Part shown: piece after piece, positions 17,675-40,432 of the stretch | Position numbering within the stretch: position 1 is the stretch's first letter | How the letters are laid out: every line of letters starts with the position of its first letter | Origin: Bradyrhizobium sp. CCGB01 | GTDB lineage: Bacteria > Pseudomonadota > Alphaproteobacteria > Rhizobiales > Xanthobacteraceae | Assembly: GCF_024199795.1 (NCBI RefSeq) | Contig: NZ_JANADK010000001.1 | Coordinates: 3,100,001-3,164,000, forward strand | DNA length: 64,000 nucleotides | Reading direction: 5' to 3' | Notes under the pieces: generated by a model | What the model saw: the letters and a program-made list of their open reading frames with translations, nothing else | What the model was told of the DNA's origin: nothing | Databases searched by the model: none | Position numbers and translations under genes: made by a program

Positions 17675-18808
17675 CTACTCCGCCACCAGCGCATTCATAT
17701 GCTCGACGGTTTCGGCAAAATCTTCCTTGAACTCCTGCACCACGGCGCCAGCCGACTTCACGCTGTCGATCAGGCCGACGCCCTGGCCGACGAAATAGCT
17801 GACGAGATCGCGCGCCTTCGCGTTGCCGCTCGCCGCCGCGCGGTCGATCGAGTTGAAGGCGTCGCGGCTGACGATGCTTTGCAGCGGCATCGGCAGTGCA
17901 CCCGGGCTTTCCGGCGCGCGGTCCCAGGCATCGGTCCAGACCGAGCGGAGTTGTCGCGCCGGCTTTCCCGTGCGGCCCTTCGAGCGGATCGCGTCACGGG
18001 AAGAAGCCGCGATCATCTTCTCGCGGAAGATCTCCGTGGTCTCGGCCTCGACGGTGGCAAGCCACACCGAGCCGGTCCAGGCACCGGCTGCGCCCATGGC
18101 CATGCAGGCCGCCATCTGCCGTCCCGTCATGATGCCGCCGGCCGCCAGCACGGGCACGTCGCGGATCGGCTTGATGGCCTTGATCACCTCCGGCACCAGC
18201 ACCATGGTCGAGACTTCGCCGCAATGGCCGCCGGCCTCGGTGCCCTGCACAACGAGGATGTCGACGCCGGCCGCAACCTGACGCAGCGCATGCTCCTTGG
18301 CGCCAACGAGGGCGGCAACAGGCACGCCATGCTTCTTGCCCATCTCGATCATGGCCTTCGGCGGCACGCCGAGCGCGTTGGCGATCAGGCGGATCGGATG
18401 ATTGAAGGAGACGTCAAGCAGCGCCAGCGCCGTCTTCGCATCGAACGGCTGCGGCTGGTTGTCGGCAACGCTGGTTGTGGTCAACTCGATGTCGTACTTC
18501 TTCAGGAGAGCGCGTGTGTAATCGCGGTGCTCCTGCGGCACGCGCGCTTCCAGGCTCTTCCAGGTGACGTCCTTCTCGCCCGCAGTCGAGATGTTTTCCG
18601 GGATCAGCACGTCGATGCCGTAGGGCTTGCCGTCGACATGCTCGTCGATCCATTTCAGCTCGCGCTCGAGCGTATCAGGCGTGTGCACGGTGGCACCCAG
18701 CACGCCGAAGCCGCCGGCGCGGCTGACGGCAGCAACGACGTCGCGGCAATGGCTGAAGGCGAGCAGCGGGAACTCGATGCCCAGCATGTCGCAGATCGGC
18801 GATTTCAT
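17675..18808 (-). CDS. Nitronate monooxygenase (2-nitropropane dioxygenase family)
   Basis: FMN-dependent TIM-barrel oxidase of 377 residues. It begins KSPICDMLGIEFPLLAFSHC, has the barrel strand AVSRAGGFGVLGA, the FMN phosphate-binding GTEAGGHCG segment with the conserved histidine, and VLAAGGIMTGRQMAACMAMG. Family enzymes oxidise alkyl nitronates to carbonyl compounds and nitrite; many homologues in acyl-CoA clusters have unproven roles and may be other FMN oxidoreductases. A ribosome site (GGGAGAG) precedes ATG 18808. It is divergent from the Baeyer-Villiger monooxygenase gene, with 255 bp between them. Confidence 0.87.
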   Translation of the reverse strand: MKSPICDMLGIEFPLLAFSHCRDVVAAVSRAGGFGVLGATVHTPDTLERELKWIDEHVDGKPYGIDVLIPENISTAGEKDVTWKSLEARVPQEHRDYTRALLKKYDIELTTTSVADNQPQPFDAKTALALLDVSFNHPIRLIANALGVPPKAMIEMGKKHGVPVAALVGAKEHALRQVAAGVDILVVQGTEAGGHCGEVSTMVLVPEVIKAIKPIRDVPVLAAGGIMTGRQMAACMAMGAAGAWTGSVWLATVEAETTEIFREKMIAASSRDAIRSKGRTGKPARQLRSVWTDAWDRAPESPGALPMPLQSIVSRDAFNSIDRAAASGNAKARDLVSYFVGQGVGLIDSVKSAGAVVQEFKEDFAETVEHMNALVAE

Positions 18809-19063: not shown

Positions 19064-20731
19064 ATGTCGCCAGCGCAAGCGAGTCCGGCCCAAACCGTGG
19101 AAGCCTACGACGTAGTGGTCGTCGGCGCGGGCTTCGCCGGCATGTACATGCTGCATCGCCTGCGCGAGCTTGGTTTCTCGGCACGGGTCTACGAGCAGGG
19201 CGGTGGCGTCGGCGGCACCTGGTACTGGAATCGCTATCCCGGTGCACGCTGCGACGTCGAAAGCATGCAGTACTCATATTCCTTCTCCGAGGAGCTTCAG
19301 CAGGAATGGGACTGGAGCGAGCGCTATGCGCCGCAGCCGGAGATCCTGAAATACGCCAATCACGTTGCCGATCGTTTTGATCTTCGCCGCGACATCCAGT
19401 TCGACACCCGCGTCGAGCGCGCCGCGTTGGACGCGCGCACCAAGCGCTGGTCGGTGACGATCTCCGGCGACAAGACGGTTCAGGCGAGCTTTATTGTCCT
19501 GGCCACCGGTTGCCTCTCGAACGCGCGCAAGCCCGACATCAAGGGCCTCGAAAACTTCAAAGGTCCCGTCTACCACACCGGCAACTGGCCGCACGAAGAC
19601 GTCGACTTCACGGGCCTGCGCGTCGGTCTCATCGGGACTGGTTCATCGGGCATCCAGTCGGCGCCCGTCATCGCCGAGCAGGCAAGGCATCTCACGGTAT
19701 TTCAGCGCACCGCAAACTTCTCGATTCCCGCCCGCAATGCCGCCCTGACCGATGCGGAGCGTGACACGTTCCGCAGGAAATATCCCGAGGTCCGCCAGTT
19801 CGCGCGCGAGGTCGCGCGCAACGGGATCTATGCCGAGCAGCCCGATCGCGGTGCGCTTGACGATAGCGACGAGACCAGGAACGGCAAGTACGCGGCGCGA
19901 TGGGAGCGCGGCGGACTCACCTTCATGTATGTCTACAACAATCTCGGCCTCGATCGGTCCGCGAACGACACCGCGGCGGATTTCGTGCGCGGCAAGATCA
20001 CCGAGATCGTCAAGGATCCCGCAACGGCAAAATTGCTTCAGCCCAACAGCCATCCGATCGGCACCAAGCGCATCTGCATCGACACCGATTATTTCGCGAC
20101 CTTCAACCGGCCGAATGTGTCGCTGGTCGACATCAAGACCAATCCGATCGAAGAGATCACGGCGAATGCCGTGCGCGTTGCGGGCGTAGACCACGCGGTC
20201 GACGCGCTGGTGATGGCGACCGGCTTCGACGCCATGACGGGCTCGGTCGCGAAGATCGACATTCGCGGCCCGGGCGGGCAGACGCTGAACCAGAAATGGG
20301 CGGAAGGCCCGAAGACCTATCTCGGCCTGATGAGCGCGGGCTTTCCGAACCTTTTCATCATCACCGGCCCAGGCAGCCCATCGGTGCTGTCGAACATGAT
20401 CGTGTCGATCGAGCAGCATGTCGACTGGATCGCCGATTGCCTCGTCCACATGCGCCGGCGGGGCGTTGCCACCATTGAGGCGGGCGGGGAGGCCGAGGAG
20501 AAATGGGTGGCGCATGTCAACGAGGTCGCCCACGGCACGCTCTATCCGCAGGCCAATTCCTGGTACATGGGCGCCAATGTCCCGGGCAAGCCGCGCATCT
20601 TCATGCCCTATATCGGCGGCGTCGGCGTTTACCGCCGGATCTGCGACGAGGTTGCGGCGAAGGGGTACGAGGGCTTCGTGATGGAGGCCGCAGCCCGGCC
20701 GCGCAGGCTGGAAGCAGGCGAGGTTGCATGA
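19064..20731 (+). CDS. Baeyer-Villiger-type flavin monooxygenase (cyclohexanone monooxygenase family)
   Basis: FAD/NADPH monooxygenase of 555 residues. The FAD Rossmann motif is GAGFAGMYM (residues 21-29), the Baeyer-Villiger fingerprint FKGPVYHTGNWP is at residues 165-176, and the NADPH Rossmann motif GTGSSG is at 191-196. ATGF near residue 385 is the usual late motif. These enzymes insert oxygen beside a ketone carbonyl to make an ester or lactone. The gene lies in a cluster of CoA ligases, acyl-CoA dehydrogenases and an APH-type kinase, which fits onward use of a hydroxy acid released from a lactone. A GGGAGCGCC ribosome site precedes ATG 19064. The substrate is unknown. Confidence 0.9.
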   Translation: MSPAQASPAQTVEAYDVVVVGAGFAGMYMLHRLRELGFSARVYEQGGGVGGTWYWNRYPGARCDVESMQYSYSFSEELQQEWDWSERYAPQPEILKYANHVADRFDLRRDIQFDTRVERAALDARTKRWSVTISGDKTVQASFIVLATGCLSNARKPDIKGLENFKGPVYHTGNWPHEDVDFTGLRVGLIGTGSSGIQSAPVIAEQARHLTVFQRTANFSIPARNAALTDAERDTFRRKYPEVRQFAREVARNGIYAEQPDRGALDDSDETRNGKYAARWERGGLTFMYVYNNLGLDRSANDTAADFVRGKITEIVKDPATAKLLQPNSHPIGTKRICIDTDYFATFNRPNVSLVDIKTNPIEEITANAVRVAGVDHAVDALVMATGFDAMTGSVAKIDIRGPGGQTLNQKWAEGPKTYLGLMSAGFPNLFIITGPGSPSVLSNMIVSIEQHVDWIADCLVHMRRRGVATIEAGGEAEEKWVAHVNEVAHGTLYPQANSWYMGANVPGKPRIFMPYIGGVGVYRRICDEVAAKGYEGFVMEAAARPRRLEAGEVA

Positions 20732-20833
20732 CGCCGGCCTGAGGCCCGCGCCGGACGCAGAGCCGGCAGGGCTTGTCATCGGCCATTCGCGGGCTAATTA
20801 ATGCAGGCGCATCTTTCCGCCGGAGCCCCCCGC

Positions 20834-21712
20834 ATGACCGACGCCCCCGCCTACGTGCCGCCAAAAGTCTGGACCTGGAACAAGGAGAACGGCGGCCAGT
20901 TCGCCAGCATCAACCGGCCGATTGCCGGCGCGACCCACGACAAGGAGCTGCCGGTCGGCAAGCATCCTCTCCAGCTCTATTCGCTGGCGACGCCGAACGG
21001 GGTCAAGGTCACCGTGATGCTGGAGGAACTGCTGGCGCTCGGCCACAAGGGTGCCGAGTATGACGCCTGGCTGATCAAGATCGGCAACGGCGACCAGTTC
21101 GGCAGCGGCTTTGTCGACATCAACCCGAACTCAAAAATCCCGGCGCTGATGGATCGCGCCGGTCCGGAGCCGATCCGGGTGTTCGAATCCGGCTCGATCC
21201 TGTTCTACCTTGCCGAGAAGTTCGGCGGTGCCTTCCTGCCGAAGGAGATCAAGGCCCGCACCGACGCCATGTCCTGGCTGTTCTGGCAGATGGGCAGCGC
21301 GCCGTATCTCGGCGGCGGCTTCGGCCATTTCTACGCCTACGCGCCGTTCAAGATCGAATACGCCATCGATCGCTTCGCGATGGAGGTCAAGCGCCAGCTC
21401 GACGTGCTCGACCGGCGCCTCGCCGACAACGAGTACCTCGCGGGCAAGGAGTACACGATCGCCGATATGGCGGTGTGGCCGTGGTACGGCGCACTTGCCA
21501 AGGGGCTGGTCTACGGCGCCGGCGAATTCTTGTCGGTGCAGGACTACAAGAACGTGCAGCGCTGGACCGACCAGATCGCGAAGCGTCCCGCCGTGAAGCG
21601 CGGCCGCATGGTCAACCGCGTCTCCGGCGATCCCGCCAGCCAGCTCCACGAGCGGCATGATGCGTCTGACTTCGAGACCAAGACGCAGGACAAGCTCGCA
21701 CCCGCGTCGTAG
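20834..21712 (+). CDS. yghU: YghU-type glutathione S-transferase (disulfide-bond oxidoreductase)
   Basis: Nu-class GST of 292 residues. The N-terminal YVPPKVWTWNKENGGQFASI and INRPIAG segment preceding the thioredoxin fold is diagnostic of YghU. LYSLATPNGVKVTVMLEE carries the glutathione-site threonine/asparagine, and NPNSKIPALMD is the cis-proline loop; the all-helical C-terminal domain follows (IADMAVWPWYGAL). Known relatives reduce disulfides with glutathione and have organic peroxidase activity. Start at ATG 20834, where the family-typical sequence begins. It follows the monooxygenase gene by about 100 bp on the same strand. Confidence 0.9.
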   Translation: MTDAPAYVPPKVWTWNKENGGQFASINRPIAGATHDKELPVGKHPLQLYSLATPNGVKVTVMLEELLALGHKGAEYDAWLIKIGNGDQFGSGFVDINPNSKIPALMDRAGPEPIRVFESGSILFYLAEKFGGAFLPKEIKARTDAMSWLFWQMGSAPYLGGGFGHFYAYAPFKIEYAIDRFAMEVKRQLDVLDRRLADNEYLAGKEYTIADMAVWPWYGALAKGLVYGAGEFLSVQDYKNVQRWTDQIAKRPAVKRGRMVNRVSGDPASQLHERHDASDFETKTQDKLAPAS

Positions 21713-21716
21713 GTGT

Positions 21717-21796
21717 GTAGGGCGGATTAGCCGAAGGCGTAATCCGCCATTTCGCGGTCAAAATTCGGCGGATTACGCTTCGCTAATCCGCCCTAC
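21717..21796. repeat. Palindromic repeat family G
   Basis: GTAGGGCGGATTAGC and its reverse complement enclose GCGTAATCCGCC/GGCGGATTACGC inner arms. It sits between the convergent GST and flavin reductase genes; the stop codon of the latter falls inside the repeat arm. Only one copy is in the window. Confidence 0.82.
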
Positions 21797-22410
21797 GGCT
21801 TCTTCGCACCCTCCGCCGCCGGAAACACCACGCGGTCATCCGTGCGGCAGTAGCGATCGGCGAACATGCGGCCGATCGGATGATAGCGGTCCATGTGCAC
21901 CCGCATCTTGTCGCCATCCCACAGCTCGTCGCGGATATGGAAGTGGATGCCTTCGCCCATGATCAGGCGGCGGTCGTCGTTGACGTCGATCATCTTCCAG
22001 AGTTTGCACTCCATTGCCCAGGGCGTGTCGGCCAGTCGCGGCACGGCAATCCTGGTTGATGGCGCGAGCTTCAGCCCGAGATAGTCGGGTTCGCCGATGT
22101 CAGGCGGGAAATCGCCGCTGCTCTCGTGCATGGCCTTCGCCAGCGGCTCGTCGGCGAGGTTGACCACGAACTCGCCGGTGCGCTGGATGTTGAGGAACGT
22201 GTCCTTGTCCTGTCCGTTCGGCTTGCGGTTCGCCGCGAACATACACAGCGGCGGATCCTCGCAGAAGGCGTTGAAGAAGCTGAAGGGGGCGGCGTTGACG
22301 ATTCCGGTCGGCCCGACCGAGGTCACCCATGCGATCGGCCGCGGCAGGATGAAGGACGTCAGCACCTTGTAGCGCTCGCGTGGCGTCAGCTCGCTGGCGG
22401 CGTAGTCCAT
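21793..22410 (-). CDS. Flavin reductase-family protein (FMN-binding split barrel)
   Basis: A 205-residue FMN-binding split-barrel protein. LPRPIAWVTSVGPTGIVNAAPFS is the conserved FMN-binding strand pair (seen here in parts), followed by PPLCMFAANR and GEFVVNL. Such proteins supply reduced flavin or act as small flavoenzymes; this longer subgroup is often annotated only as flavin reductase family. Start at ATG 22410, preceded by AGGAGCCACC. The stop codon is provided by the edge of the palindromic repeat. It is on the same strand as the ACAD gene, 192 bp downstream of it with another repeat between. Confidence 0.85.
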   Translation of the reverse strand: MDYAASELTPRERYKVLTSFILPRPIAWVTSVGPTGIVNAAPFSFFNAFCEDPPLCMFAANRKPNGQDKDTFLNIQRTGEFVVNLADEPLAKAMHESSGDFPPDIGEPDYLGLKLAPSTRIAVPRLADTPWAMECKLWKMIDVNDDRRLIMGEGIHFHIRDELWDGDKMRVHMDRYHPIGRMFADRYCRTDDRVVFPAAEGAKKP

Positions 22411-22445
22411 GGTGGCTCCTGGAGGGAGAGAGCTTGCTTTCTTCA

Positions 22446-22585
22446 CCTCGCCCCGCTTGCGGGGAGAGGTCGAATTCGATTGCAGATCGAATTCGGGTGA
22501 GGGGGAGTCTCCGCGAGTCCGATTGTCACCGTCCTCGCGGAGGCTCCCCCTCATCCTGACCCTCTCCCCGCAAGCGGGGAGAGGG
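22446..22585. repeat. Double palindromic repeat family H
   Basis: Two hairpin units, CCTCGCCCCGCTTGCGGGG and CCTCTCCCCGCAAGCGGGG, flank a centre with GGAGTCTCCGCGAG/CTCGCGGAGGCTCC arms, so the whole forms a nested palindrome. It lies 17 bp beyond the ACAD stop. Confidence 0.82.
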
Positions 22586-22602
22586 GAAAGAGAGAGTGTG
22601 GA

Positions 22603-23880
<1,278 letters not shown>

Positions 23881-24053
23881 TGTTCCTCCCGTTTCGCTGA
23901 GACCGTGTTGGCCGGGACAATAGTCGCAGCGCCGCCAAAGCGCGAGCGCGTATTTTCTCACGCGAGCCATGCCATGCGATGGAATTTTCGCAGGGCGTTT
24001 GAAATGTTGTTTGAATGGAGTCGGAGTTTCGGTGAGCCTGTGCGCCAATCTCC

Positions 24054-24162
24054 GCTGTCATCGCCCGATTTAATCGGGCGATCCAGTATTCCAGAGACTG
24101 CAATGATTGAACCGAAAGGCCGCGGCGTACTGGATGCCCCGGTCAAGCCGGGGCATGACAGC
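24054..24162. repeat. Palindromic repeat family D, copy 1
   Basis: GCTGTCATCGCCCG and GGGGCATGACAGC outer arms with GGGCGATCCAGTA/GTACTGGATGCCCC inner arms, 16 bp beyond the VOC gene stop. A second copy is at 27811-27932. Confidence 0.82.
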
Positions 24163-24178
24163 GATGGAGGTGGCCGGC

Positions 24179-24559
24179 TCAGTTCGGCAGCCGATGCATC
24201 GCGCAGATCTTGTTGCCGTCGAGGTCGCGCAAATAGGCGAGATAGAGCTTGCCGCCCGGACCCTGGCGCACGCCGGGCGGATCCTCGATCGGGGCGCCGC
24301 CGGCTGCGAGGCCGGCTGCGTGCCACGCATCGACCTGCTCCGGCGAATTGCAGGCAAAGCCGATGGTGCCGCCGTTCGCGCACGTGGCCGGCTCGCCGTT
24401 GATCGGCTTCGACACCGAGAACACGCCGGTCTTGGTGATGTAGAAGATGCGGTGGCCGTCGACCCTGGCCGGCCGCACCTCGAGCGTGTTCAGCAGTTGG
24501 TCGTAGAACGTCTTGGCCTTGTCGAGGTCGTTGGTGCCGATCATGATGTGTGAAAACAT
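24179..24559 (-). CDS. VOC family (glyoxalase/bleomycin-resistance fold) protein
   Basis: A single-domain VOC protein of 126 residues starting MFSHIMIGTNDLDKAKTFYD, the usual first beta strand and helix, and ending in a LRDLDGNKICAMH strand with the C-terminal metal or substrate position. The length fits one half-barrel pair, so it probably works as a dimer. Histidine 4 is retained in the first metal position. It lies between the ACAD11-like and SDR genes on the same strand, but nothing in the sequence fixes its substrate. Repeats flank it on both sides. Confidence 0.83.
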   Translation of the reverse strand: MFSHIMIGTNDLDKAKTFYDQLLNTLEVRPARVDGHRIFYITKTGVFSVSKPINGEPATCANGGTIGFACNSPEQVDAWHAAGLAAGGAPIEDPPGVRQGPGGKLYLAYLRDLDGNKICAMHRLPN

Positions 24560-24597
24560 TTTGCCCGTTCCCCTCTGCGCTTACAAACTCAGAAACC

Positions 24598-24685
24598 GTA
24601 GGGTGGGCAAAGCGCAGCGTGCCCACCACAACATTCGAAAATGATATTGGTGGGCACGGCGCAAGAGCGCCTTTGCCCACCCTGC
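24598..24685. repeat. Palindromic repeat family B, copy 3
   Basis: GTAGGGTGGGCAAAG left end; the right end reads CCCACCCTGC with one mismatch. Inner arms are GCGTGCCCACCA/TGGTGGGCACGGCGC-like. It lies 6 bp beyond the SDR stop. Confidence 0.83.
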
Positions 24686-24691
24686 GAGATC

Positions 24692-25471
24692 TCAAAATGC
24701 GGTATAGCCGCCGTCGATCACGAACGTATCCGCGGTGTGATACGACGACGCTTTGCTCATCAGATACACCGCGATGCCGCCGAAATCGCTGGCCTCGCCG
24801 AAGCGCCGCACCGGAATGCGCGGCATCACGTTGGCGACGAACTTGTCGTTGGCCATGATGCCCGCGGTCATGTCGCTCTTGATCCAGCCGGGCAGGATCG
24901 CGTTCGCGGTGACGCCGTGCCGCGCCAGCTCGACGCCGAGCGCACGCACCAGCGCGTTGATGGCGGCCTTGGTCGCCGCATAATGCTCGTTGCGCGCGGT
25001 GCCGAAGATCGAAGCGAGGCTCGAGGTCGCGACCAGCCGGCCGAAGGGGTCTCCGGCATTGGCGCGATCGGTCATATGCCTGGCGGCGGCCTGGAACGCG
25101 TGGAACACGCCGTCGAGGTTGGTCGCGAACATCGTGCGCCATTCCTCCTCGGTGCGCTCGATGAAGGAACGCCGGCCGCCGCCGCCGATGCCGGCATTGG
25201 CGAAGCAGCCGTCGACCCGGCCGAAAATGTCGAGCGTCGCCTTCATCGCGGCATCGACCGAGGCCGGATCGGTGACGTCGCAGACGCGGCTGTCGACCTT
25301 GCCTGATAGCCCCGCCATGCTCGCGGCAGCGGCCTTGTTCTTGTCAGGATTACGCCCCCAGATCGAGACGTTGCAGCCCTGGCCGGCAAGCGCCTGCGCG
25401 ATGCCGAGCCCGATACCGCCATTGCCGCCGGTGATCACGGCGACGCGGCCGGTGAGGTCGAAAAGGTTCAT
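24692..25471 (-). CDS. SDR-family oxidoreductase
   Basis: Classical short-chain dehydrogenase of 259 residues. The cofactor loop is GGNGGIGLG, followed by NAG and the catalytic YAATK with an upstream serine pair (ATSSLAS). ATG 25471 is preceded by AGGAAA. It is divergent from the crotonase-kinase-DUF6285 operon and on the same strand as the ACAD11-like gene. In the P. putida levulinate pathway the SDR LvaD reduces a 4-oxoacyl-CoA to the 4-hydroxyacyl-CoA, a role this enzyme could fill. Family membership is certain; the substrate is not. Confidence 0.88.
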   Translation of the reverse strand: MNLFDLTGRVAVITGGNGGIGLGIAQALAGQGCNVSIWGRNPDKNKAAAASMAGLSGKVDSRVCDVTDPASVDAAMKATLDIFGRVDGCFANAGIGGGGRRSFIERTEEEWRTMFATNLDGVFHAFQAAARHMTDRANAGDPFGRLVATSSLASIFGTARNEHYAATKAAINALVRALGVELARHGVTANAILPGWIKSDMTAGIMANDKFVANVMPRIPVRRFGEASDFGGIAVYLMSKASSYHTADTFVIDGGYTAF

Positions 25472-25637
25472 GGCGCGTTTCCTGTTTTTGGCATGAGGCG
25501 CATCAGCCGCTGCGCGCAAGATTGCTTGCTATGCTCTGACCACCATGGACAAGGCCGCGACAAAAATCAAATATGCGCCCCGGCAAAAGTAATTCCGGTC
25601 TGCGAAACTGACACAGGCCGCAACGCACGAGGAAACC

Positions 25638-26426
25638 ATGCAGTTCAAACACGTCACGCTCGATTTCGATGGTTCGGTCGCGATCCTCAGGCTCGACCAT
25701 CAGGAGGTGATGAACGCGGTCTCCATGGACATGCTGGGCGGCCTCGCCGACGCGCTCGACGCGATCGAGGAGAAGAAGGAGGAGGTGCGCTGCGTCGTGC
25801 TGACCGGCGCGGGGCGGGCGTTCTGCACGGGCGCCAATCTTCAGGGCCGCAACAACCAGTCGAAGAAGACCAAGGCCGGCCTGACGCTCGAGACCGGTTT
25901 TCATCCCTTCCTGCGCCGCATCCGCAATCTGCATTGCCCAATCGTGACCGCGGTCAACGGCCCGGCCGCCGGCGCCGGCATGAGCTTCGCACTGCTCGGC
26001 GACATGATCCTGTGCGCGCGCTCATCCTACTTCCTGCAGGCGTTCCGCCGCATCGGCCTGGTGCCGGATTGCGGCTCGACCTGGCTGCTGCCGCGCCTCG
26101 TCGGCCGGGCGCGCTCGATCGAATTGTCGCTGATGGGCGAGCGCCTGCCGGCCGAGAAGGCGCTGGAATGGGGCCTCGTCAACCGCGTCTACGACGACGG
26201 CGTGCTGATGGAGGAGGCGATGAAGCTTGCGCGCGACCTCGCGAGCGGGCCGACGGTCGCGCTGTCGTTGATCCGCAAGCTCTATTGGGACAGCCCGGAA
26301 AATTCCTTCGAGGACCAGCTCAACCTCGAATTCCAGTGCCAGCTCCGCGCCGGCGATACCGATGATTTCCGCGAAGGCGTCGGCGCCTTCCTGGAGAAGC
26401 GCCCGGCGCAGTTCAAAGGCAAATGA
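25638..26426 (+). CDS. Enoyl-CoA hydratase/isomerase (crotonase) 1
   Basis: Crotonase of 262 residues. The oxyanion-hole segments are VVLTGAGRAFCTGANLQ and VTAVNGPAAGAGMSFALLGD, and the QAFRRIGLVPDCGSTWLLPR segment matches isomerase/hydratase members with an aspartate-cysteine in place of the usual glutamate-glycine. It should act on an unsaturated acyl-CoA. Its stop overlaps the kinase start by four bases (ATGA), so it belongs to the same transcript as the kinase and DUF6285 genes. Confidence 0.9.
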   Translation: MQFKHVTLDFDGSVAILRLDHQEVMNAVSMDMLGGLADALDAIEEKKEEVRCVVLTGAGRAFCTGANLQGRNNQSKKTKAGLTLETGFHPFLRRIRNLHCPIVTAVNGPAAGAGMSFALLGDMILCARSSYFLQAFRRIGLVPDCGSTWLLPRLVGRARSIELSLMGERLPAEKALEWGLVNRVYDDGVLMEEAMKLARDLASGPTVALSLIRKLYWDSPENSFEDQLNLEFQCQLRAGDTDDFREGVGAFLEKRPAQFKGK

Positions 26427-27409
26427 TCGAGGCGGAGCTTTTTCGCAGCGTCCAGCGCTGGTGCAAGGGCGCAACCGGCGTCACCGGCGCAGCAAAGCTG
26501 TCGGGCGGCGCCAGTCAGGAAACCTGGCGCTTCGACATCGTGCATCCCGACGGGGCGATCGGCGCAATCCTGCGCCGCTCGCCGAAGGGCTATGGCGCAG
26601 CCCCAACGCGCGCGGCGGGCCTCGCCGCCGAAGCGCAGCTGATGCAGCTCGCCTTCGAGGCGGGCGTGCCGTCGCCGCGTGTGATGCATGTACTGACGCC
26701 GGATGAAGATCTCGGCACCGGCTTCATCATGCAGCGGGTCGAGGGCGAGACCATCGCCCGCAAGATTCTGCGCGATGAGGAATTTGCTGCGGCACGGCCG
26801 CGGCTCGCGCGGCAGATCGGCGGCGTGCTTGCGGGCCTGCACAGGCTGCCGCAGGACAAGCTGCCCGAGCTTCGCAGCCGCAACGCGACCCAGGAGATCT
26901 CCGAGTTCGAGCGCGACTATCGCAGCCTGAACTGGCCAAAGCCCGTGTTCGAGCTGGCACTGCGCTGGCTGCGCGACCACGATCCCGGCCCGTCGGTCGA
27001 GACCACGCTGGTGCATGGCGATTTCCGCAACGGCAATCTCATCATCGGTGCCGACGGCGTCCGGGCCGTGCTCGACTGGGAGCTTGCCCATCTCGGCGAT
27101 CCCATGGAGGATCTCGGCTGGGTTTGCGTCAACTCCTGGCGCTTCGGCGAGATCGACAAGCCGGTCGGCGGCTTCGGCTCGCGCGAGGAGCTGTTCGCCG
27201 GCTATGAGGCAGCCGGCCGCAAATGCGATCCCGAGCGCGTCAAATTCTGGGAAGTGATGGGCACGCTGCGCTGGGGCATCATGTGCGGCGGCATGATGCA
27301 GCGGTTCCGCGAGGGACCGGACCATTCGATGGAGCGCGCCATGATCGGCCGCCGCGCCAGCGAGACCGAGATCGATCTGTTGCGGCTGCTCGCGCCGCGC
27401 GGGAGCTAA
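26423..27409 (+). CDS. APH-family phosphotransferase, candidate 4-hydroxyacyl-CoA kinase (LvaA/ACAD10-11 kinase-like)
   Basis: Protein-kinase-like fold phosphotransferase of 328 residues. The catalytic loop is HGDFRNGN (residues 198-205) and the metal-binding loop is LDWELAHLGDP (217-227). An ATP-pocket segment GGASQETWRF lies near residue 28. This subgroup is the separate bacterial version of the N-terminal domain of ACAD10/11; LvaA of Pseudomonas putida phosphorylates 4-hydroxyvaleryl-CoA. It overlaps the crotonase by four bases and is followed by a DUF6285 gene after 2 bp, the same pairing as LvaA-LvaB. An antibiotic-modifying role is unlikely in this context. Confidence 0.85.
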   Translation: MIEAELFRSVQRWCKGATGVTGAAKLSGGASQETWRFDIVHPDGAIGAILRRSPKGYGAAPTRAAGLAAEAQLMQLAFEAGVPSPRVMHVLTPDEDLGTGFIMQRVEGETIARKILRDEEFAAARPRLARQIGGVLAGLHRLPQDKLPELRSRNATQEISEFERDYRSLNWPKPVFELALRWLRDHDPGPSVETTLVHGDFRNGNLIIGADGVRAVLDWELAHLGDPMEDLGWVCVNSWRFGEIDKPVGGFGSREELFAGYEAAGRKCDPERVKFWEVMGTLRWGIMCGGMMQRFREGPDHSMERAMIGRRASETEIDLLRLLAPRGS

Positions 27410-27411
27410 GC

Positions 27412-27789
27412 ATGCAAGACGAACCGACACCGATCGAGCTGACCAAGGCGGTTGCCGATTTCCTCCGTAACGACATCACGCCGCTGATCTCCGGCCACCA
27501 GGCCTTCAAGCTGCGCGTCGCCGTCAACATCCTCGACCTCGTCACGCGGCAATTGACGCGGGAGGAGGGGAGCGACGCCGCGGAGGTGGAGCGCCTGCGC
27601 GCGCTGCTCGGCATGGACGGCTCGGTCACCGACCTCAACCGCGCGCTCGCCGAGCGCATCGCCAAGGGCGAAGCGGGCCTCGCAACGCCGGGCCTTGTCG
27701 AGCATCTGTGGGCGACCACGATGGACAAGCTGGCGGTCGATCAACCGAATTATGCGTCGTACAAGCGGGAGCTGGGGCGGGGCGAGTAG
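27412..27789 (+). CDS. DUF6285-type small protein, candidate partner of the kinase (LvaB-like)
   Basis: A 125-residue, mostly helical soluble protein. It starts 2 bp after the kinase stop with no room for its own promoter. Visible features are LTKAVADFLRNDITPLISG, AFKLRVAVNILDLVTRQL and a C-terminal LWATTMDKLAVDQPNYASYK; there is no signal peptide or membrane segment. In P. putida a small protein (LvaB) encoded beside LvaA is required for kinase activity, so a partner role is inferred from position and size. The DUF number is from memory of the family and should be treated as tentative. Confidence 0.72.
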   Translation: MQDEPTPIELTKAVADFLRNDITPLISGHQAFKLRVAVNILDLVTRQLTREEGSDAAEVERLRALLGMDGSVTDLNRALAERIAKGEAGLATPGLVEHLWATTMDKLAVDQPNYASYKRELGRGE

Positions 27790-27810
27790 GAAGTCGCGCG
27801 CCATACTCGC

Positions 27811-27932
27811 TGTCATCGCCCGCCTTGTGCGCACTTGCGCACCGGGGCGGGTGATCCAGTACTCCGAGACAGTTGTGATTTGATCGATGGGCTGCGGCGT
27901 ACTGGATGCCCCGGTCAAGCCGGGGCATGACA
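27811..27932. repeat. Palindromic repeat family D, copy 2
   Basis: TGTCATCGCCCG and GGGGCATGACA outer arms with GATCCAGTACTC/GCGTACTGGATG inner arms. It lies between the convergent DUF6285 and crotonase 2 genes, 21 bp after the former. Confidence 0.82.
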
Positions 27933-27974
27933 CCGCTGATGTGGGGGCGTCTCGTTGTGGCGGCGAAAGGCCTC

Positions 27975-28754
27975 CTACTTCCCCACCCATTTCGGCGGAC
28001 GCTTCTCCGAGAACGCCTTGGGGCCTTCGACGTAATCCTGCGAGGCCACCATTGCCTTCACCGCCGGATATTCGCGCTGCTCCTCGATCGCCTGCTCCAG
28101 CGAGACCGCGAGACCCTTCTGGATCGCCTGCTTCGAGGCGCGGATCGACATCGGCGAGTTCTTGGTGATCATCTCCGCCCAGCGCAGCGCGCCCGACAGC
28201 GCCTCGCCCTGTGGCACGACCTCGTTGACGAAGCCGAGCTCATGCCCTTCCTTGGCGCTGACATGGCGCGCGGTGAGGATCATGCCCATGGCGCGCTTCA
28301 GCCCGATCTGGCGCGGCAACCGGTGCAGGCCGCCGGCAAGCGCTGCAAGACCGACGCGCGGCTCGGGCAGGGCGAAGGTCGCGTTCTCGGAAGCGATGAT
28401 CAGGTCGCAGGCGAGCGCGATCTCGAAGCCGCCACCCATGGCAACGCCGTTGACCGCGGCGATGATCGGCTTGTCGCAGTCGAAACGCGCAGTGAGGCCG
28501 GCAAAGCCGCCCTTGTCCCAGCCGCGCTTGCCGCCGGCGGCCTGCCACTTCAGATCGTTGCCGGCGCAGAACGCCTTCTCGCCGGCGCCGGTGACGATCG
28601 CGACCCATTGCTCGGGGTCGGCAGCGAAATCGTCGAACACCTTCTGAAGCTCGAAATGTGCATCGGTGTGGAGCGCGTTGTAAACCTCGGGCCGCGACAG
28701 CGTGACGATCGTGACCGGCCCCTTGCGTTCCACCTTTGAGAATTTCAGCTCCAT
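27975..28754 (-). CDS. Enoyl-CoA hydratase/isomerase (crotonase) 2
   Basis: Crotonase of 259 residues from ATG 28754, which has a GGGAG ribosome site. Oxyanion-hole segments are VTGAGEKAFCAGNDLK and IAAVNGVAMGGGFEIALACD. Catalytic-type glutamate appears in FALPEPRVGLAALAGG, where the second glutamate position is alanine, so hydratase versus isomerase action is open. The C-terminus ends EKRPPKWVGK, common in crotonases. It is convergent with the DUF6285 gene and divergent from the second acyl-CoA dehydrogenase. Confidence 0.88.
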   Translation of the reverse strand: MELKFSKVERKGPVTIVTLSRPEVYNALHTDAHFELQKVFDDFAADPEQWVAIVTGAGEKAFCAGNDLKWQAAGGKRGWDKGGFAGLTARFDCDKPIIAAVNGVAMGGGFEIALACDLIIASENATFALPEPRVGLAALAGGLHRLPRQIGLKRAMGMILTARHVSAKEGHELGFVNEVVPQGEALSGALRWAEMITKNSPMSIRASKQAIQKGLAVSLEQAIEEQREYPAVKAMVASQDYVEGPKAFSEKRPPKWVGK

Positions 28755-28966
28755 CGCGCGCTCCCGCATTTTCTCGTGAAGGAATATTGGCGTCATACTA
28801 CCGCGCGCCAGCACGAGAGCACCATCGAAATGCGCGGGCGCGCCTTGCGCCTGTCACACGCCTCGCTTTGCTTGACTTGCGCGCGCTCTTCTCACCTTAA
28901 TCGTGCGAAGCAAAACGCGCCTAGCGCCTTAACGCAAAACGATAAAATCAATCCGGGAGAGAACCT

Positions 28967-30241
28967 GTGGATTTCTCATTGCCTGCCGATCTCGTCGCCT
29001 ATCTCGGAGAGCTCGACCGTTTCATCGAACGCGAGATCAAGCCGCTCGAGCAAGCCGACGACAACATCCGCTTCTTCGATCATCGCCGCGAATGGGCGCG
29101 CACCGATTTCGAGAATGGCGGCCTGCCGCGCCATGAGTGGGAGGCGCTGCTGCGCAAGGCAAAGGATCTCGCAGACGCCGCCGGCCATCTGCGCTTTCCG
29201 GTGTCGAAGCAGTATGGCGGCAAGGACGGCTCCAACCTCTGGATGGCCGTGATCCGCGAGCATTTTGCGGCGAAGGGCCTTGGCCTGCACAACGACCTCC
29301 AGAACGAGCACTCGATCGTCGGCAATTTTCCCGTCGTCACCATGCTCGACCGCTACGGCCGCGACGACCAGAAGGCGATGATCGACGGCTCGATCAAGGG
29401 CAAGTACCGCATCACCTTTGGATTGACCGAGCCGCATCACGGCTCGGATGCGACCCACATGGAGACGCGCGCGGTGCCGGCGACCCGCGACAACGTCAAG
29501 GGCTGGATCATCAACGGCGAGAAGATGTGGACGACCGGCATGCACGTCGCCACGCATTGTGCGCTGTTCGCGCGCACGTCCGGCAATGACGGCGATGCCC
29601 GCGGCATCACCTGTTTCCTGGTGCCGGCCAAGAGCCATGGCGTCAGGATCGAGGAGTACATGTGGACCTTCAACATGCCGACCGACCATCCCCGCGTCAG
29701 TTTTACGGACGTGTTCGTTCCGGAGGATGCGTTGTTCGGCGAGGTCGGCCGCGGCCTGTCGCTGGCGCAGTGTTTCGTCCACCAGAACCGGATCCGCCAG
29801 GCGGCGAGCTCGCTCGGCGCGGCGGTCTACTGCATCAACGAGAGCGTCAAATACGCGCGTGAGCGAAAGCCGTTCGGCCGGGCGCTCGCGGAGAACCAGG
29901 CGATCCAGTTCCCGCTGGTCGAGCTTGCCACGCAAGCCGAGATGCTGCGCCTGTTGATCCGCAAGACCGCCTGGGAGATGGACCAGCTCACCGAGGAGCA
30001 GATCGAGCGCACGCTCTCCGACCGCGTCTCGATGTGCAACTACTGGGCAAACCGCCTCTGCTGCGAATCCGCCGACCGCGCCATGCAGGTCCACGGCGGC
30101 ATGGGCTACTCACGCCACAAGCCGTTCGAGCACATCTACCGCCACCATCGCCGCTACCGCATCACCGAGGGCAGCGAGGAGATCCAGATGCGCAAGGTGG
30201 CGGGATTTTTGTTCGGGTATATGGGGCCGGGGAAGCATTGA
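28967..30241 (+). CDS. Acyl-CoA dehydrogenase 2
   Basis: FAD-dependent acyl-CoA dehydrogenase of 424 residues from GTG 28967, preceded by GGGAGAG. Motifs include FGLTEPHHGSDATHMET in the middle domain, WIINGEKMWTTGMH, the QNRIRQAASSLGAAVYC helix, RKPFGRALAENQAIQ, and QVHGGMGYS...YRITEGSEEIQ at the C-terminus. It is a conventional member, distinct from the ACAD11-like enzyme at 22603. It should introduce the alpha-beta double bond in an acyl-CoA with electrons passing to ETF. Chain specificity is unknown. Confidence 0.9.
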   Translation: MDFSLPADLVAYLGELDRFIEREIKPLEQADDNIRFFDHRREWARTDFENGGLPRHEWEALLRKAKDLADAAGHLRFPVSKQYGGKDGSNLWMAVIREHFAAKGLGLHNDLQNEHSIVGNFPVVTMLDRYGRDDQKAMIDGSIKGKYRITFGLTEPHHGSDATHMETRAVPATRDNVKGWIINGEKMWTTGMHVATHCALFARTSGNDGDARGITCFLVPAKSHGVRIEEYMWTFNMPTDHPRVSFTDVFVPEDALFGEVGRGLSLAQCFVHQNRIRQAASSLGAAVYCINESVKYARERKPFGRALAENQAIQFPLVELATQAEMLRLLIRKTAWEMDQLTEEQIERTLSDRVSMCNYWANRLCCESADRAMQVHGGMGYSRHKPFEHIYRHHRRYRITEGSEEIQMRKVAGFLFGYMGPGKH

Positions 30242-30257
30242 GGCTTGCACCGGCATC

Positions 30258-30347
30258 GTAGGGTGGGCAAAGCGCGAGCGTGCCCACCAGCTCTCTCGTA
30301 ATCGAAGAATGGTGGGCACGGCGCTTTGCGCCTTTTTCCCACCCTAC
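30258..30347. repeat. Palindromic repeat family B, copy 4
   Basis: GTAGGGTGGGCAAAG and its reverse complement (one T-run variation), 16 bp after the acyl-CoA dehydrogenase stop, beside a family E copy in the same convergent gap. Confidence 0.84.
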
Positions 30348-30381
30348 GGTACTGCCGGCGTTGCTGCTTATTTCTCCCCGA

Positions 30382-30515
30382 CGTCGTCCCCGCGAACGCG
30401 GGGACCCATAACCACAGGGAGAAGTTCGGGGCGAGCCGGTCACTCCGAGCCCTCGCAAAACTCGATCCTGTGGTTATGGGTCCCGGGCTCGCGCTGCGCG
30501 CGCCCCGGGACGACG
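30382..30515. repeat. Palindromic repeat family E, copy 1
   Basis: CGTCGTCCCCGCGAACGCGG with GGGACCCATAACCACAGG on one side; CCTGTGGTTATGGGTCCC and a GGGACGACGG end on the other. It lies 6 bp from the stop of the convergent ligase gene. A second copy is at 53590-53714. Confidence 0.82.
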
Positions 30516-30521
30516 GCGGGG

Positions 30522-32102
30522 CTAATTCACCCGCCGGTCCTTCCCCGTCCAATACGGCTCGCGCAATTGCCGCCGCAGGATCTTGCCCGAGGGATTGCGC
30601 GGCAGGGCCGGCAGAAACTCTACGCTCTTCGGCGTCTTGAAGCCGGCGATGCGCTCGCGGGTGAAGTTGATGATGTCGGTGGCGGTCGCCTGCTTGCCCG
30701 GCTTCATCACCACGACCGCCTTCACGGCTTCGCCCCATTTGTCATCGGGCACACCGATCACGGCGGCTTCGGCGACGTCGGGATGATCGCACAGCGCGCT
30801 CTCGACCTCGGCCGGATAGATGTTCTCGCCGCCCGAGATGATCATGTCCTTGATGCGGTCGTGGATGTAGAGATAGCCGTCCTCGTCCATGTAGCCGGCA
30901 TCGCCGGTGCGCAGCCAGCCGTCGGCGCGCAGCGTCGCGGCGGTCGCCTCAGGCAAATTCCAGTAGCCGGCCATGTTGTGGTCCGAGCGCGTTGCGATTT
31001 CACCGACCTGCCGCGGCGGCAGCGGCTTGCCGTCGGGATCTAGGATCGCGAGCTCCACGCCCGCCAGCGCCTTTCCAGCCGAGCGCATCCGCTCGAGGCC
31101 CTCGACGTGATCCTCCGGCGGCAATGCGACGATGGTCCCGGTCGTCTCCGTCATGCCGTAGAGTTGCACGAACCCGCATTTGAAGATTTCGATGCATTCC
31201 TTCAGCAGTGCCGCCGGAATAGGCGAGGCGCCATAGAGCATGTATTTCAGCCGCGAGAAATCCATGGTCTTCGCGCGCGGTTGCCGCACCACGAATTGCA
31301 TCGCCGCCGGCACCATGAACAGCTTCGTGATGCCGAATTGCTCGAAGAAGTCGAGCACCTTGGTCGGATCGAACTCGCGTGCGATCACGCTGCGCGCACC
31401 GTGGCCGAGTCCCACAACGCCCCAGCCGGAGCCGCCGATATGAAAGATCGGCATCGCGACCAGCGAGACGTCGTCGGTCGACCACCTGTTCCATTCCGGC
31501 GTGTCCGCGCCGCTCCCGGCCTGCAGCAGGCTGTTGAAGTTCGAATGCGTCAGCATCGCGCCCTTCGGCTTGCCCGTGGTGCCGGAGGTGTAGAGCTGCA
31601 TCGCGATATCCTGTGGGGTGATCGGGACCCTCGGATCATCGCTGCTCTGTGCATCCCGCCAGCCCGCAAAATCCTGCCATTCCGGCGCGCCGCCCTCGGT
31701 CGTGATGATGGTACGGACGCCGGGCAGCTTGTCCCTGATCTGATGGACTTGCGCGATGAATTCCGGCCCGACGAACAGCACCGGGGCCTTGCAGTCGGCG
31801 ACGATGAAGGCAACCTCGGGCCCGGCGAGCCGCCAGTTCACCGGCGCCATCACCACACCGGCCTTCATCGCGCCCATCAGTAGTTCGAAATAGAGGTCGC
31901 TGTTCTTGCCGAGATAGGCGATCCGGTCGCCCTTCTTCACGCCCATCGCGATCAGCGCGTTGGCGACCTTGTTGGTCCTGACGTCGAATTCGGCAAAGCT
32001 GGTGAGGCGGCCCTCGAACTCATAGGCGATCGCATCGCCGCGGCTCTTCGCGCGCTCGCGCACCATGTCGGCGAGGTTCGCCAATGGCTGTGTGGTGGAC
32101 AT
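30522..32102 (-). CDS. Acyl-CoA ligase (AMP-forming, FadD-like) 1
   Basis: Adenylate-forming enzyme of 526 residues from ATG 32102, which has GGGAGAG upstream. The ATP-binding P-loop is LYTSGTTGKPKGAM, the adenylate motif is YGMTETTG, the hinge aspartate lies in RTGDAGYMDEDGYLYIHDR and the C-terminal domain has SGGENIYPAEVES and the catalytic lysine in NPSGKILRRQLREPYW. It activates a carboxylic acid to its CoA thioester at the start of the local beta-oxidation genes. Short, medium or cyclic acids are all possible. An SDR gene lies 78 bp upstream on the same strand. Confidence 0.92.
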   Translation of the reverse strand: MSTTQPLANLADMVRERAKSRGDAIAYEFEGRLTSFAEFDVRTNKVANALIAMGVKKGDRIAYLGKNSDLYFELLMGAMKAGVVMAPVNWRLAGPEVAFIVADCKAPVLFVGPEFIAQVHQIRDKLPGVRTIITTEGGAPEWQDFAGWRDAQSSDDPRVPITPQDIAMQLYTSGTTGKPKGAMLTHSNFNSLLQAGSGADTPEWNRWSTDDVSLVAMPIFHIGGSGWGVVGLGHGARSVIAREFDPTKVLDFFEQFGITKLFMVPAAMQFVVRQPRAKTMDFSRLKYMLYGASPIPAALLKECIEIFKCGFVQLYGMTETTGTIVALPPEDHVEGLERMRSAGKALAGVELAILDPDGKPLPPRQVGEIATRSDHNMAGYWNLPEATAATLRADGWLRTGDAGYMDEDGYLYIHDRIKDMIISGGENIYPAEVESALCDHPDVAEAAVIGVPDDKWGEAVKAVVVMKPGKQATATDIINFTRERIAGFKTPKSVEFLPALPRNPSGKILRRQLREPYWTGKDRRVN

Positions 32103-32180: not shown

Positions 32181-33053
32181 TCACCCTCGTTTCGCCCGGT
32201 CCTTCTCGTTCTGCGCCATGATGCTCTCGCGCGCGGTCTTCCAGTCGTCGTCGCTCCAGTCGCGGAGCTGGTAGAAATTGCCGCCCATGGCGAGCGCCTG
32301 TGCGCCGTCCATGGCGATGGTCTCGCCGGTGATCCAGTCGCAGCCACCGGAGATCAGGAACACCGCGAGGTTCTGCAACTCCTCCATGGTGCCGACGCGG
32401 CCCATCGGATTCATCGCCCTGGTGCGCGCGCCGGCTTCGTCGCCCGGCTTGATGCGCTTGCTCATGCCCTCGGTCGGGATCTCGCCCGGCGCGATCGTGT
32501 TGAGGCGGATGCCGTACCGGCCCCATTCGGTCGCGAGCGACATCGTCATGGCGTGGATCGCCGACTTGCTCATCGCCGACGGCACGACGTAAGGCGAGCC
32601 GTTGCGCACCCAGGTCACGGTGATTGACACGACATTGCCGGGCTGTTTCAGCGCGATCCAGCGCTTGCCGACCGCATGCGTGACATAGAACGTGCCGTGC
32701 ATGACGATGTTGGCGACGGCATCGAAGCCGCGCGGCGAGAGCTCTTCGCTGCGCGAGATGAAATTGCCGGCGGCGTTGTTGATGAGGTCGGTGAGGGGCG
32801 CCTCGCGAAAGATGGTCTCGACCATCTCCTCGACCGCGAGCGCGTTGCGGATGTCGACGCCGTGGCTGGTGACGCGGCCGCCATACTGATCCATCAGCTC
32901 GGTCGCGGTCTCGTCGCAGACGATCTTGCGCCGGCCGCAGATATGCACCTCGGCGCCGAGCTGAAGGAAGCGCGCCGCCATCGACTTGCCGAGCCCGGTC
33001 CCGCCGCCGGTCACGAGAATGCGGCGTCCAGCCAGAAGATTTTCCTTGAACAT
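32181..33053 (-). CDS. SDR-family reductase, 2,4-dienoyl-CoA reductase-like
   Basis: Short-chain dehydrogenase fold of 290 residues with GGGTGLGKSMA cofactor loop and NNAAGNF. Instead of the usual YxxxK it has SAMSK within VVPSAMSKSAIHAM, followed by ATEWGRYGIRLNTIAPGEI; this SxxxK arrangement and flanking sequence match animal mitochondrial 2,4-dienoyl-CoA reductases. It would remove double bonds of polyunsaturated acyl-CoAs using NADPH. The gene is divergent from crotonase 3 and upstream of acyl-CoA ligase 1 on the same strand. GGGAGAAAC precedes ATG 33053. Confidence 0.85.
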   Translation of the reverse strand: MFKENLLAGRRILVTGGGTGLGKSMAARFLQLGAEVHICGRRKIVCDETATELMDQYGGRVTSHGVDIRNALAVEEMVETIFREAPLTDLINNAAGNFISRSEELSPRGFDAVANIVMHGTFYVTHAVGKRWIALKQPGNVVSITVTWVRNGSPYVVPSAMSKSAIHAMTMSLATEWGRYGIRLNTIAPGEIPTEGMSKRIKPGDEAGARTRAMNPMGRVGTMEELQNLAVFLISGGCDWITGETIAMDGAQALAMGGNFYQLRDWSDDDWKTARESIMAQNEKDRAKRG

Positions 33054-40119: not shown

Positions 40120-40432
40120 TGCTCGCTTCAGCGGAGCGGCCAGGTGGCTGGTTGGGTAGCTGAAAAGCTCCTCGCGGGCATCGACCAATTGGGGGCTTCC
40201 AGCTTGCACTCAACTCTGAGTCACGCGCGGCAAGGCTTGTGGTGGTGGAGCGGCCCGCCACCGCGAGACCGAAGGCATGTGTGCGCGCTGCGAGGCGCAA
40301 TCCCAACCTTGTCCAACCTTGATCGGCGATGTTGCCGCGCCGCCCCCAAGTTCATCTTGCACTGCGGCAGAAAAATATCGCACACTCCCCCGGACCGGGG
40401 AGCCGCAGGGAGCTCTACAAGGGGAGCGAGCC
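40120..40432. other. 313-bp gene-free stretch upstream of ppc
   Basis: I see no convincing open frame or palindromic repeat here. It must contain the ppc promoter and leader; an AAGGGGAGCGAG ribosome site ends it, but I could not pick a promoter with confidence. Confidence 0.5.

Follow-up and report, generated by a model that had tools for sequence, protein, structure and literature searches.

Introduction

The removal of a hydroxyl group from an acyl-CoA with the assistance of phosphate has been elucidated in Pseudomonas and, during 2024-2025, in mammals. In this work we study a gene region of Bradyrhizobium sp. CCGB01 that contains an APH-fold kinase, a small DUF6285 protein, two acyl-CoA dehydrogenases (ACADs, here called ACADa and ACADb) and a Baeyer-Villiger monooxygenase (BVMO), located in a stretch of 64,000 nucleotides (contig NZ_JANADK010000001.1, positions 3,100,001 to 3,164,000; hereafter the window) that belongs to a complete 9.3 Mb chromosome. 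For the lva system of Pseudomonas putida, PMC6692424 relates from Rand 2017 that lvaA and lvaB are both required for growth on levulinate and that LvaB was pulled down with LvaA. For ACAD10/11, PMC12440821 describes residues R626, H634 and R637 as holding the phosphate and D753 as the base, with changes of R626, H634 or R637 abolishing or impairing the ACAD step.

In a first-pass annotation the region was described as a candidate 4-hydroxyacid catabolic island of the lva and ACAD10/11 kind. Based on the present analysis, we lean with moderate confidence towards a variant phospho-hydroxyacyl-CoA pathway that is composed of two adjacent modules, uses a kinase of a third clade and has ACADb as a fixed member. 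By analogy, the residues, the kinase tree and the LvaB family favour the kind of chemistry first proposed, while the pairing of the kinase with ACADa does not hold.

Comparison of the locus with the described systems

Along the window the genes are BVMO and a GST-fold gene (both +), a flavin reductase, ACADa, a VOC gene and a first short-chain dehydrogenase, SDR1 (all -), an enoyl-CoA hydratase/isomerase, ECH1, the kinase and DUF6285 (all +), ECH2 (-), ACADb (+), and an acyl-CoA ligase and SDR2 (both -). The motifs quoted in the first-pass annotation are real, with each occurring once in the window, and the ACAD11-like dehydrogenase, APH-type kinase, small protein, SDR and acyl-CoA ligase that it listed are all present, the stretch that runs from ACADa through the ligase, both genes included, measuring 9.5 kb. 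ECH1, ECH2 and ACADb, as well as the opposite strands of ACADa and the kinase, had gone unmentioned.

The window resembles the lva operon of Pseudomonas (plasmid copy, L102) in the fold and catalytic residues of the kinase, in the LvaB-family protein directly behind the kinase and in having ACAD, SDR and ligase families nearby. By contrast, the window kinase lies outside the LvaA clade, overlaps ECH1 and has ACADb as its conserved partner, and the nearest ACAD with the R/H/R/D residues is of the ACAD11 type and lies on the opposite strand, 2.5 kb from the kinase. Whereas the lva operon is co-directional, the minus strand here carries ACADa, SDR1 and the ligase, and the plus strand carries the kinase together with DUF6285. 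SDR1 is 30% identical to LvaD and the ligase 34% identical to LvaE. In the interval from 10 to 43 kb, where a part of the open reading frames (ORFs) was scanned, no sigma-54 regulator LvaR was found.

Compared with animal ACAD10/ACAD11 and their bacterial two-gene counterparts (3dxp and the pair at 5.93 Mb of the same chromosome), the likeness is on the side of ACADa, which is 49% identical to the ACAD domain of mouse ACAD11 and, by alignment, keeps the equivalents of R626, H634, R637 and D753, i.e., all four phosphate-site and catalytic residues. The window kinase differs from these in being unfused, in falling in a separate clade, in having a DUF6285 partner and in the arginines discussed below.

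A third system for comparison is the plasmid cluster L099 of Sulfitobacter pontiacus, with the order ligase-kinase-DUF6285-ACADb-ECH-ECH and with identities to the window of 50% for the ligase, 48% for the kinase, 38% for DUF6285, 70% for ACADb and 47% for the second ECH versus ECH1. It differs from the window in being a single-strand run with an LvaC-like ACAD upstream (57% to LvaC), and the ACADa orthologue of the strain is on another plasmid, together with a ligase, an ECH, SDRs and a VOC gene.

The kinase and its small partner

The kinase gene (26423..27409, +), proposed to encode a hydroxyacyl-CoA kinase, matches PF01636 (E 1.8e-37) and carries both HGDFRNGN (27014-27037, +) and LDWE (27071-27082, +) in the same APH ORF. 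It overlaps ECH1 (25638..26426, +; NF004635, 485.7 bits versus a cut-off of 351) by 4 bp, an overlap that recurs unchanged in 76 of 80 related loci, and the DUF6285 gene (27412..27789, +; PF19802, E 2e-31) starts at 27412, 2 bp past the kinase stop at 27409.

The best solved-structure relatives of the kinase are 3dxp and ACAD11. In a tree of 79 kinases, which has long branches and unsettled bootstrap values, the DUF6285-linked side stands apart (99/99) from the ACAD10/11-type kinases, namely mouse ACAD11, 3dxp, the kinase at 5.93 Mb and one kinase of Sulfitobacter S190. On the DUF6285-linked side there are the LvaA clade, with 25 rows including Thermus (100/92), and beside it a clade of 30 rows (99/99) to which the window kinase belongs, the latter being 34.5% identical to LvaA. 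The catalytic Asp and Asn are kept in 25/25 LvaA-clade rows and in 43/43 window-side rows. As its solved relatives and the tree indicate, the kinase belongs with LvaA rather than with antibiotic kinases; its placement in a separate clade leads us to reject an identity as LvaA itself or as a kinase of the ACAD10/11 type.

It might be argued from the APH fold, and from weak NCBIfam similarity to APH(3'), MphF and others, that the enzyme acts on an antibiotic or another small molecule and has nothing to do with acyl-CoA metabolism. These similarities are far below the cut-offs, none of which the kinase reaches, the nearest solved structures are 3dxp and ACAD11, the tree groups it with LvaA, the neighbours are acyl-CoA enzymes and the overlap with ECH1 recurs across related loci. 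We therefore consider this explanation highly improbable, and an aminoglycoside-type identity is rejected by the NCBIfam scores, the solved relatives and the tree.

The kinase of mouse ACAD11 has been modelled as holding CoA via R86 and R176, as described in PMC12440821. An Arg beside the alphaC Glu, equated with R86 by context and not by coordinates, and an Arg at R176 are present in all four ACAD10/11-type kinases aligned. By contrast, in the LvaA-side and window-side rows the R176 position is a gap in 68/68 and the Arg beside the alphaC Glu is missing in 66/68, the window kinase having neither this Arg nor the R176 stretch. These 68 rows leave out the Nonomuraea, Nocardia and Rhodococcus kinases, all three of which have the R176 gap, with Rhodococcus having the other Arg.

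Since LvaB of the plasmid lva operon (annotated lvaB) matches DUF6285/PF19802 at 4.8e-24, the small protein of the window belongs to the LvaB family, and such a match adjoins the kinase in 39 of 40 loci of a class-wide sample (defined below), the exception being L181. From the sequences we infer that DUF6285 may supply the CoA grip that the kinase, having no equivalent of R176, would have lost. DUF6285, a proposed partner of the kinase, is predicted to be all-helical; with its AlphaFold model (pLDDT 80, pTM 0.51) Foldseek gave nothing at E 0.001 or better, and the best match in a search of the PDB had E 0.064. With slight coverage of subscription journals, our literature searches found no paper on DUF6285, no paper on a 'hydroxyacyl-CoA kinase' and, among the papers listed on clusters of kinase and ACAD, nothing on the pairing of the kinase with ACADb.

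Two side observations concern these genes. In Thermus, Azospirillum and Azoarcus (L100, L111, L112), the genes for the kinase and DUF6285 are followed by one for a histidine phosphatase, and such a gene is also mentioned for the P. citronellolis cluster in PMC6692424. ACAD10/11-type kinases lie near a DUF6285-linked kinase in L274 and L282 and directly before ACADb in L234 and L235; perhaps two kinase types serve one route, for different enantiomers or chain positions.

ACADb as the partner of the kinase

ACADb (28967..30241, +) has the ordinary catalytic Glu and does not have the phosphate-binding R/H/R triad. It carries two motifs, RIRQAA and RHHRRYRITEG, which occur together in 45 of the 46 ORFs of the fetched loci that have ACADb as best match (42 distinct genes, four having been fetched twice), with the motif-free ORF being an additional ACAD, more remote in sequence, that the Halomarina PSR21 plasmid (L249) carries, while neither motif occurs in any of 62 ACADa- or LvaC-like ORFs of the fetched loci. 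No close solved relative of ACADb was found (best PDB match 153 bits), and it reaches no NCBIfam cut-off.

The association of ACADb with the kinase was evaluated in two genome sets. The class sample contains 240 genomes of the same class, or 239 with the genome of the window left out, and the phylum sample, a second set, contains 398 genomes. Presence was scored at E 1e-70 (class sample) or 1e-35 (phylum sample) for the kinase, at 1e-80 for ACADb and at 1e-105 for ACAD11-type enzymes, the motifs of the latter not being checked one by one. The p-values given ignore the kinship of the genomes, which are phylogenetically non-independent; the ACADb genomes spread over 22 family codes in the class sample and 8 in the phylum sample.

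In the class sample, the window-type kinase is present in 31 genomes, ACADb in 33 and both in 30, so that ACADb is found in 30/31 kinase genomes versus 3/208 others (Fisher p 1.3e-33). When only the 81 genomes with an ACAD11-type enzyme are considered, ACADb is still found in 29/30 genomes with the kinase versus 3/51 without it. It is found in 0/19 genomes having a kinase of the LvaA clade versus 33/220 others (p 0.08 taken alone). ACADb genomes G001 and G145 have weaker kinases that fall below the class cut-off, with that of G145 adjoining ACADb. ECH1 at 51% identity or more is present in 22/31 kinase genomes versus 7/208 others.

The phylum sample gives the same picture. The kinase is present in 30/30 ACADb genomes, which are that of the window, nine of its genus and 20 outside it; after removal of the genus and of genomes already sampled, it is present in 17/17 ACADb genomes versus 6/364 others. 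Ten genomes have a kinase and no ACADb. Their kinases have at most 39% identity, and the four that the tree covers are in the LvaA clade. Identity of the kinase by itself does not separate the two groups, G145, G569 and G594 having kinases at 36-38% with ACADb adjacent.

Physical linkage extends beyond the genus. In the 20 phylum-sample genomes outside it, kinase and ACADb are 170-490 bp apart in nine, 1.4 kb apart in one and unlinked in ten, with one of the ten linked genomes lying outside the class. The run kinase-DUF6285-ACADb is found in L273, in L274 (outside the class), in L277-L281 and in Sulfitobacter, and in Nocardia the gene immediately ahead of ACADb is the kinase. Moreover, five haloarchaeal plasmid records (H87, H89-H92) hold an ACADb that is 56-57% identical. 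In four of these five (L243-L246) only a gene for a protein of 157-159 aa separates ACADb from a neighbouring kinase; in L249 a kinase and small protein are about 6 kb from ACADb, the kinase exceeding the fetched stretch. The haloarchaeal small protein is not DUF6285 by Pfam (two scanned), and because a comparison of the two profiles gave a probability of 3.6%, they are shown to be alike in place only. Since the kinases of the haloarchaea and of L234 and L235 are outside the window clade, ACADb is tied to a broad kinase family and not to one clade.

Several observations weigh against giving ACADb a fixed place in the pathway or against the pathway itself. In most class-sample genomes ACADb is not linked to the kinase; where it is unlinked it has no constant neighbour, with no Pfam family in more than two of 45 flanking ORFs (crude gene call). 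G044 has the kinase without ACADb, and in G125, which has ACADb, the search at E 1e-35 gave no kinase. A kinase of the ACAD10/11 type precedes ACADb in L234 and L235, and the haloarchaeal kinases, on long branches, fall outside the DUF6285-linked side and with the ACAD10/11 kinases. A Halomarina plasmid (L286) has an R/H/R ACAD gene about 48 kb from ACADb. Of the 31 kinase genomes in the class sample, 30 contain an ACAD11-type enzyme as well, and G052, the 31st, has LvaC-like ACADs with the R/H/R motif; thus the phosphate step need not involve ACADb. Orthologues of ACADa itself (identity 71% or more) are in 13 of the 31. The families, motifs, clades, co-occurrence and linkage are computed results, whereas the substrate, the position of the hydroxyl, the order of the steps and the role of ACADb are inferred.

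From these points one may suppose that ACADb is an ordinary chain-shortening dehydrogenase and that it co-occurs with the kinase through a lifestyle common to genomes with abundant beta-oxidation. This is consistent with the catalytic Glu, with its ordinary ACAD domains, with its being often unlinked and with the presence of an ACAD11-type or LvaC-like enzyme in every class-sample kinase genome. It is less consistent with the persistence of the tie among genomes that hold an ACAD11-type enzyme, with the lack of ACADb in genomes with LvaA-clade kinases and with its position next to a kinase in further orders, another class, Nocardia and haloarchaea. We thus regard it as a possible explanation, although a doubtful one, and prefer the variant pathway with ACADb as a member.

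ACADa and the other R/H/R/D dehydrogenases

ACADa (425 aa, 22603..23880, -) contains GPGRIHHCMR (23008-23037, -) and FADGPDEVH (22642-22668, -) in one ORF. By analogy with ACAD11, it is likely to be a 4-phosphoacyl-CoA phosphate eliminase, as predicted from its residues. Being 30% identical to LvaC, it is of the ACAD11 type and not of the LvaC type. It is noted that the published identities of LvaC, as given in PMC11342911, are 62% to ACAD10 and 56% to ACAD11, the latter being higher than the 34% obtained here for LvaC versus mouse ACAD11, where the query was the plasmid LvaC rather than the KT2440 protein.

The same genome holds four R/H/R/D ACADs of the ACAD11 type, ACADa included, and one of the LvaC type. 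The others are at 5.92-5.93 Mb (L103), 4.34 Mb (L012), 3.175 Mb (L013) and 4.187 Mb (L014). The one at 5.93 Mb (L001/L103) adjoins its own ACAD10/11-type kinase, and that at 4.187 Mb is the LvaC-type enzyme (56% to LvaC), near which the APH search gave no match.

The first-pass annotation had placed ACADa and the kinase in one system and had called for a check of their co-conservation. Within the genus this is borne out: among the best 80 of 559 loci by kinase similarity, nearly all titled Bradyrhizobium, 65 have full flanks, and the kinase and ACADa are linked in 63 of them. Elsewhere it fails. ACADa orthologues occur in 14 of the 239 class genomes, 13 of which also hold the kinase, and in none of the 14 fetched ACADa loci outside the genus (12-20 kb each, one per genome, a second copy of G183 left out) is there a match to the kinase or DUF6285. 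The closeness of ACADa and kinase is therefore a feature of the genus, and the idea that the kinase has its conserved partner in ACADa is rejected.

The monooxygenase and its neighbourhood

Type I BVMOs have the fingerprint FxGxxxHxxxW(P/D). The BVMO of the window (19064..20731, +), of the phenylacetone/steroid monooxygenase group, carries this fingerprint as FKGPVYHTGNWP and matches phenylacetone monooxygenase 1w4x at E 2.7e-197. It had been suggested to make the parent lactone from a ketone. The gene is present in 24 of the 65 genus loci and missing from 41, so that it is optional, and BVMO as a constant part of the region is rejected. In 36 of the loci without BVMO, the nitronate monooxygenase (NMO)-family gene (window 17675-18808, -) and the GST-fold gene are 228-381 bp apart, and in one Bradyrhizobium (L051) a BVMO remnant of two short matches at about 3027-3157 remains in a 2.2 kb NMO-GST gap, which is a loss of BVMO under way. 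In L272 (G510), from another genus of the family, the kinase module is accompanied by a BVMO orthologue and SDR1, the sequence fetched there containing no ACADa, GST or VOC gene. The presence of BVMO in L272 suggests that BVMO is an old neighbour that is often lost.

The association of BVMO-type genes with ACADa is seen more widely. ORFs with the type I fingerprint are present in 4/14 ACADa loci elsewhere versus 1/68 kinase and ACADb loci (p 0.0026), where the 68 controls omit 14 phylum-sample kinase loci, including L272 with its orthologue of the window BVMO, and where G145 is in both control groups. The four ORFs are 25-31% identical to the window BVMO and two are from one genus. In L222, from another family, the set GST-ACADa-VOC-BVMO recurs, a VOC gene standing by the ACADa orthologue there as in Sulfitobacter. 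There is thus some support for a monooxygenase feeding an ACAD11-type enzyme, a supply in which, outside the family, the kinase would have no part.

The original proposal in its full form is that of one lva-like island, in which the kinase, the small protein, ACADa, SDR1 and the ligase act as LvaA, LvaB, LvaC, LvaD and LvaE and receive a lactone that the BVMO produces. All the families lie within 13 kb, the kinase and ACADa are together in nearly all genus loci, and BVMO-type genes stand near ACADa elsewhere, in L222 together with GST and VOC, and near the kinase module in L272. Against this, the kinase is outside the LvaA clade, ACADa is of the ACAD11 type, no ACADa locus elsewhere holds the kinase, the BVMO is missing from most genus loci, both strands are used and the annotation of 14 genes from 17.7 to 33.1 kb shows no lactonase or esterase. 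We consider this proposal unlikely and keep to the two-module pathway, within which the lactone-forming role has in its favour the BVMO-type genes of the ACADa loci and L272.

Proposed route

Based on our reading, module 1 would consist of BVMO, GST, ACADa, VOC and SDR1, and module 2 of ECH1-kinase-DUF6285 followed by ECH2 and ACADb. The phosphate site of ACADa, the nearness of the kinase to LvaA and the LvaB-family protein together make the phosphorylation of a hydroxyacyl-CoA before beta-oxidation the best reading. The kinase with its LvaB-family partner would transfer phosphate to the hydroxyl group, most likely at C4, of a hydroxyacyl-CoA. ACADa would then, by analogy, remove the phosphate from the 4-phosphoacyl-CoA with no net redox change, giving a 2-enoyl-CoA. 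After that, ECH1 would hydrate the enoyl-CoA, an SDR would oxidise the product and a thiolase would complete the turn, with beta-oxidation continuing. In this scheme ACADb would more likely be an ordinary dehydrogenase that catalyses a neighbouring step, or else a new type of phosphoacyl-CoA enzyme.

The latter scenario can be put as follows. The basic motif of ACADb and its place beside the haloarchaeal kinases suggest that ACADb might be a phosphate eliminase. In a search that covered four haloarchaeal plasmids and no chromosomes, the fetched LvaC-like matches of three of the plasmids show no R/H/R motif. It would then be a third kind of phosphoacyl-CoA ACAD, with RIRQ / RHHRRYR as a basic phosphate site and the Glu kept as base, belonging to an old bacterial-archaeal module that combines several kinase branches with a small partner, in bacteria DUF6285 giving the CoA grip and in haloarchaea an unrelated-looking protein of 157-159 aa. 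We put this forward tentatively, as a possibility with less than an even chance.

Other genes and side observations

The remaining genes of the region are a glutathione-dependent disulfide-bond oxidoreductase of GST fold (20801..21712, +; NF008731, 531.7 bits versus a cut-off of 325), a flavin reductase-like protein (21793..22554, -), which is variable, being in 34/65 genus loci at 60% identity, a VOC/glyoxalase-fold protein (24179..24559, -), SDR1 (24692..25471, -), the second enoyl-CoA hydratase-family protein ECH2 (27975..28754, -; 65/65 genus loci), the AMP-binding acyl-CoA ligase (30522..32102, -) and SDR2 (32181..33053, -; 65/65 genus loci). The region is flanked by a gene for an RND-type (AcrB family) pump (11555-14734, +) and a PEP carboxylase gene (40277-43231, +). 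NMO genes recur near the kinase clusters L099, L115, L151, L155 and L273. A palindrome-like repeat, gtagggtgggcaaagcgc ... gtgggcacggcgc, is present in two intergenic copies that flank region genes (window 24600-24680 and 30260-30350) and is likely a dispersed genome repeat. Finally, the record JAUEPE010000001.1 (L056), titled Frankia sp. RB7, shows the Bradyrhizobium gene order at 90-97% identity and looks mislabelled.

Conclusion

The kinase pairing that was derived from gene proximity alone is corrected here, with ACADb rather than ACADa as the partner. DUF6285 gains a role to be tested, and ACADb becomes a concrete target. The separate kinase clade and the different dehydrogenase found with it across proteobacteria, together with the occurrence of this dehydrogenase next to related kinases in an actinobacterium and in haloarchaea, suggest that the phosphate-assisted chemistry is wider than LvaC and ACAD10/11.

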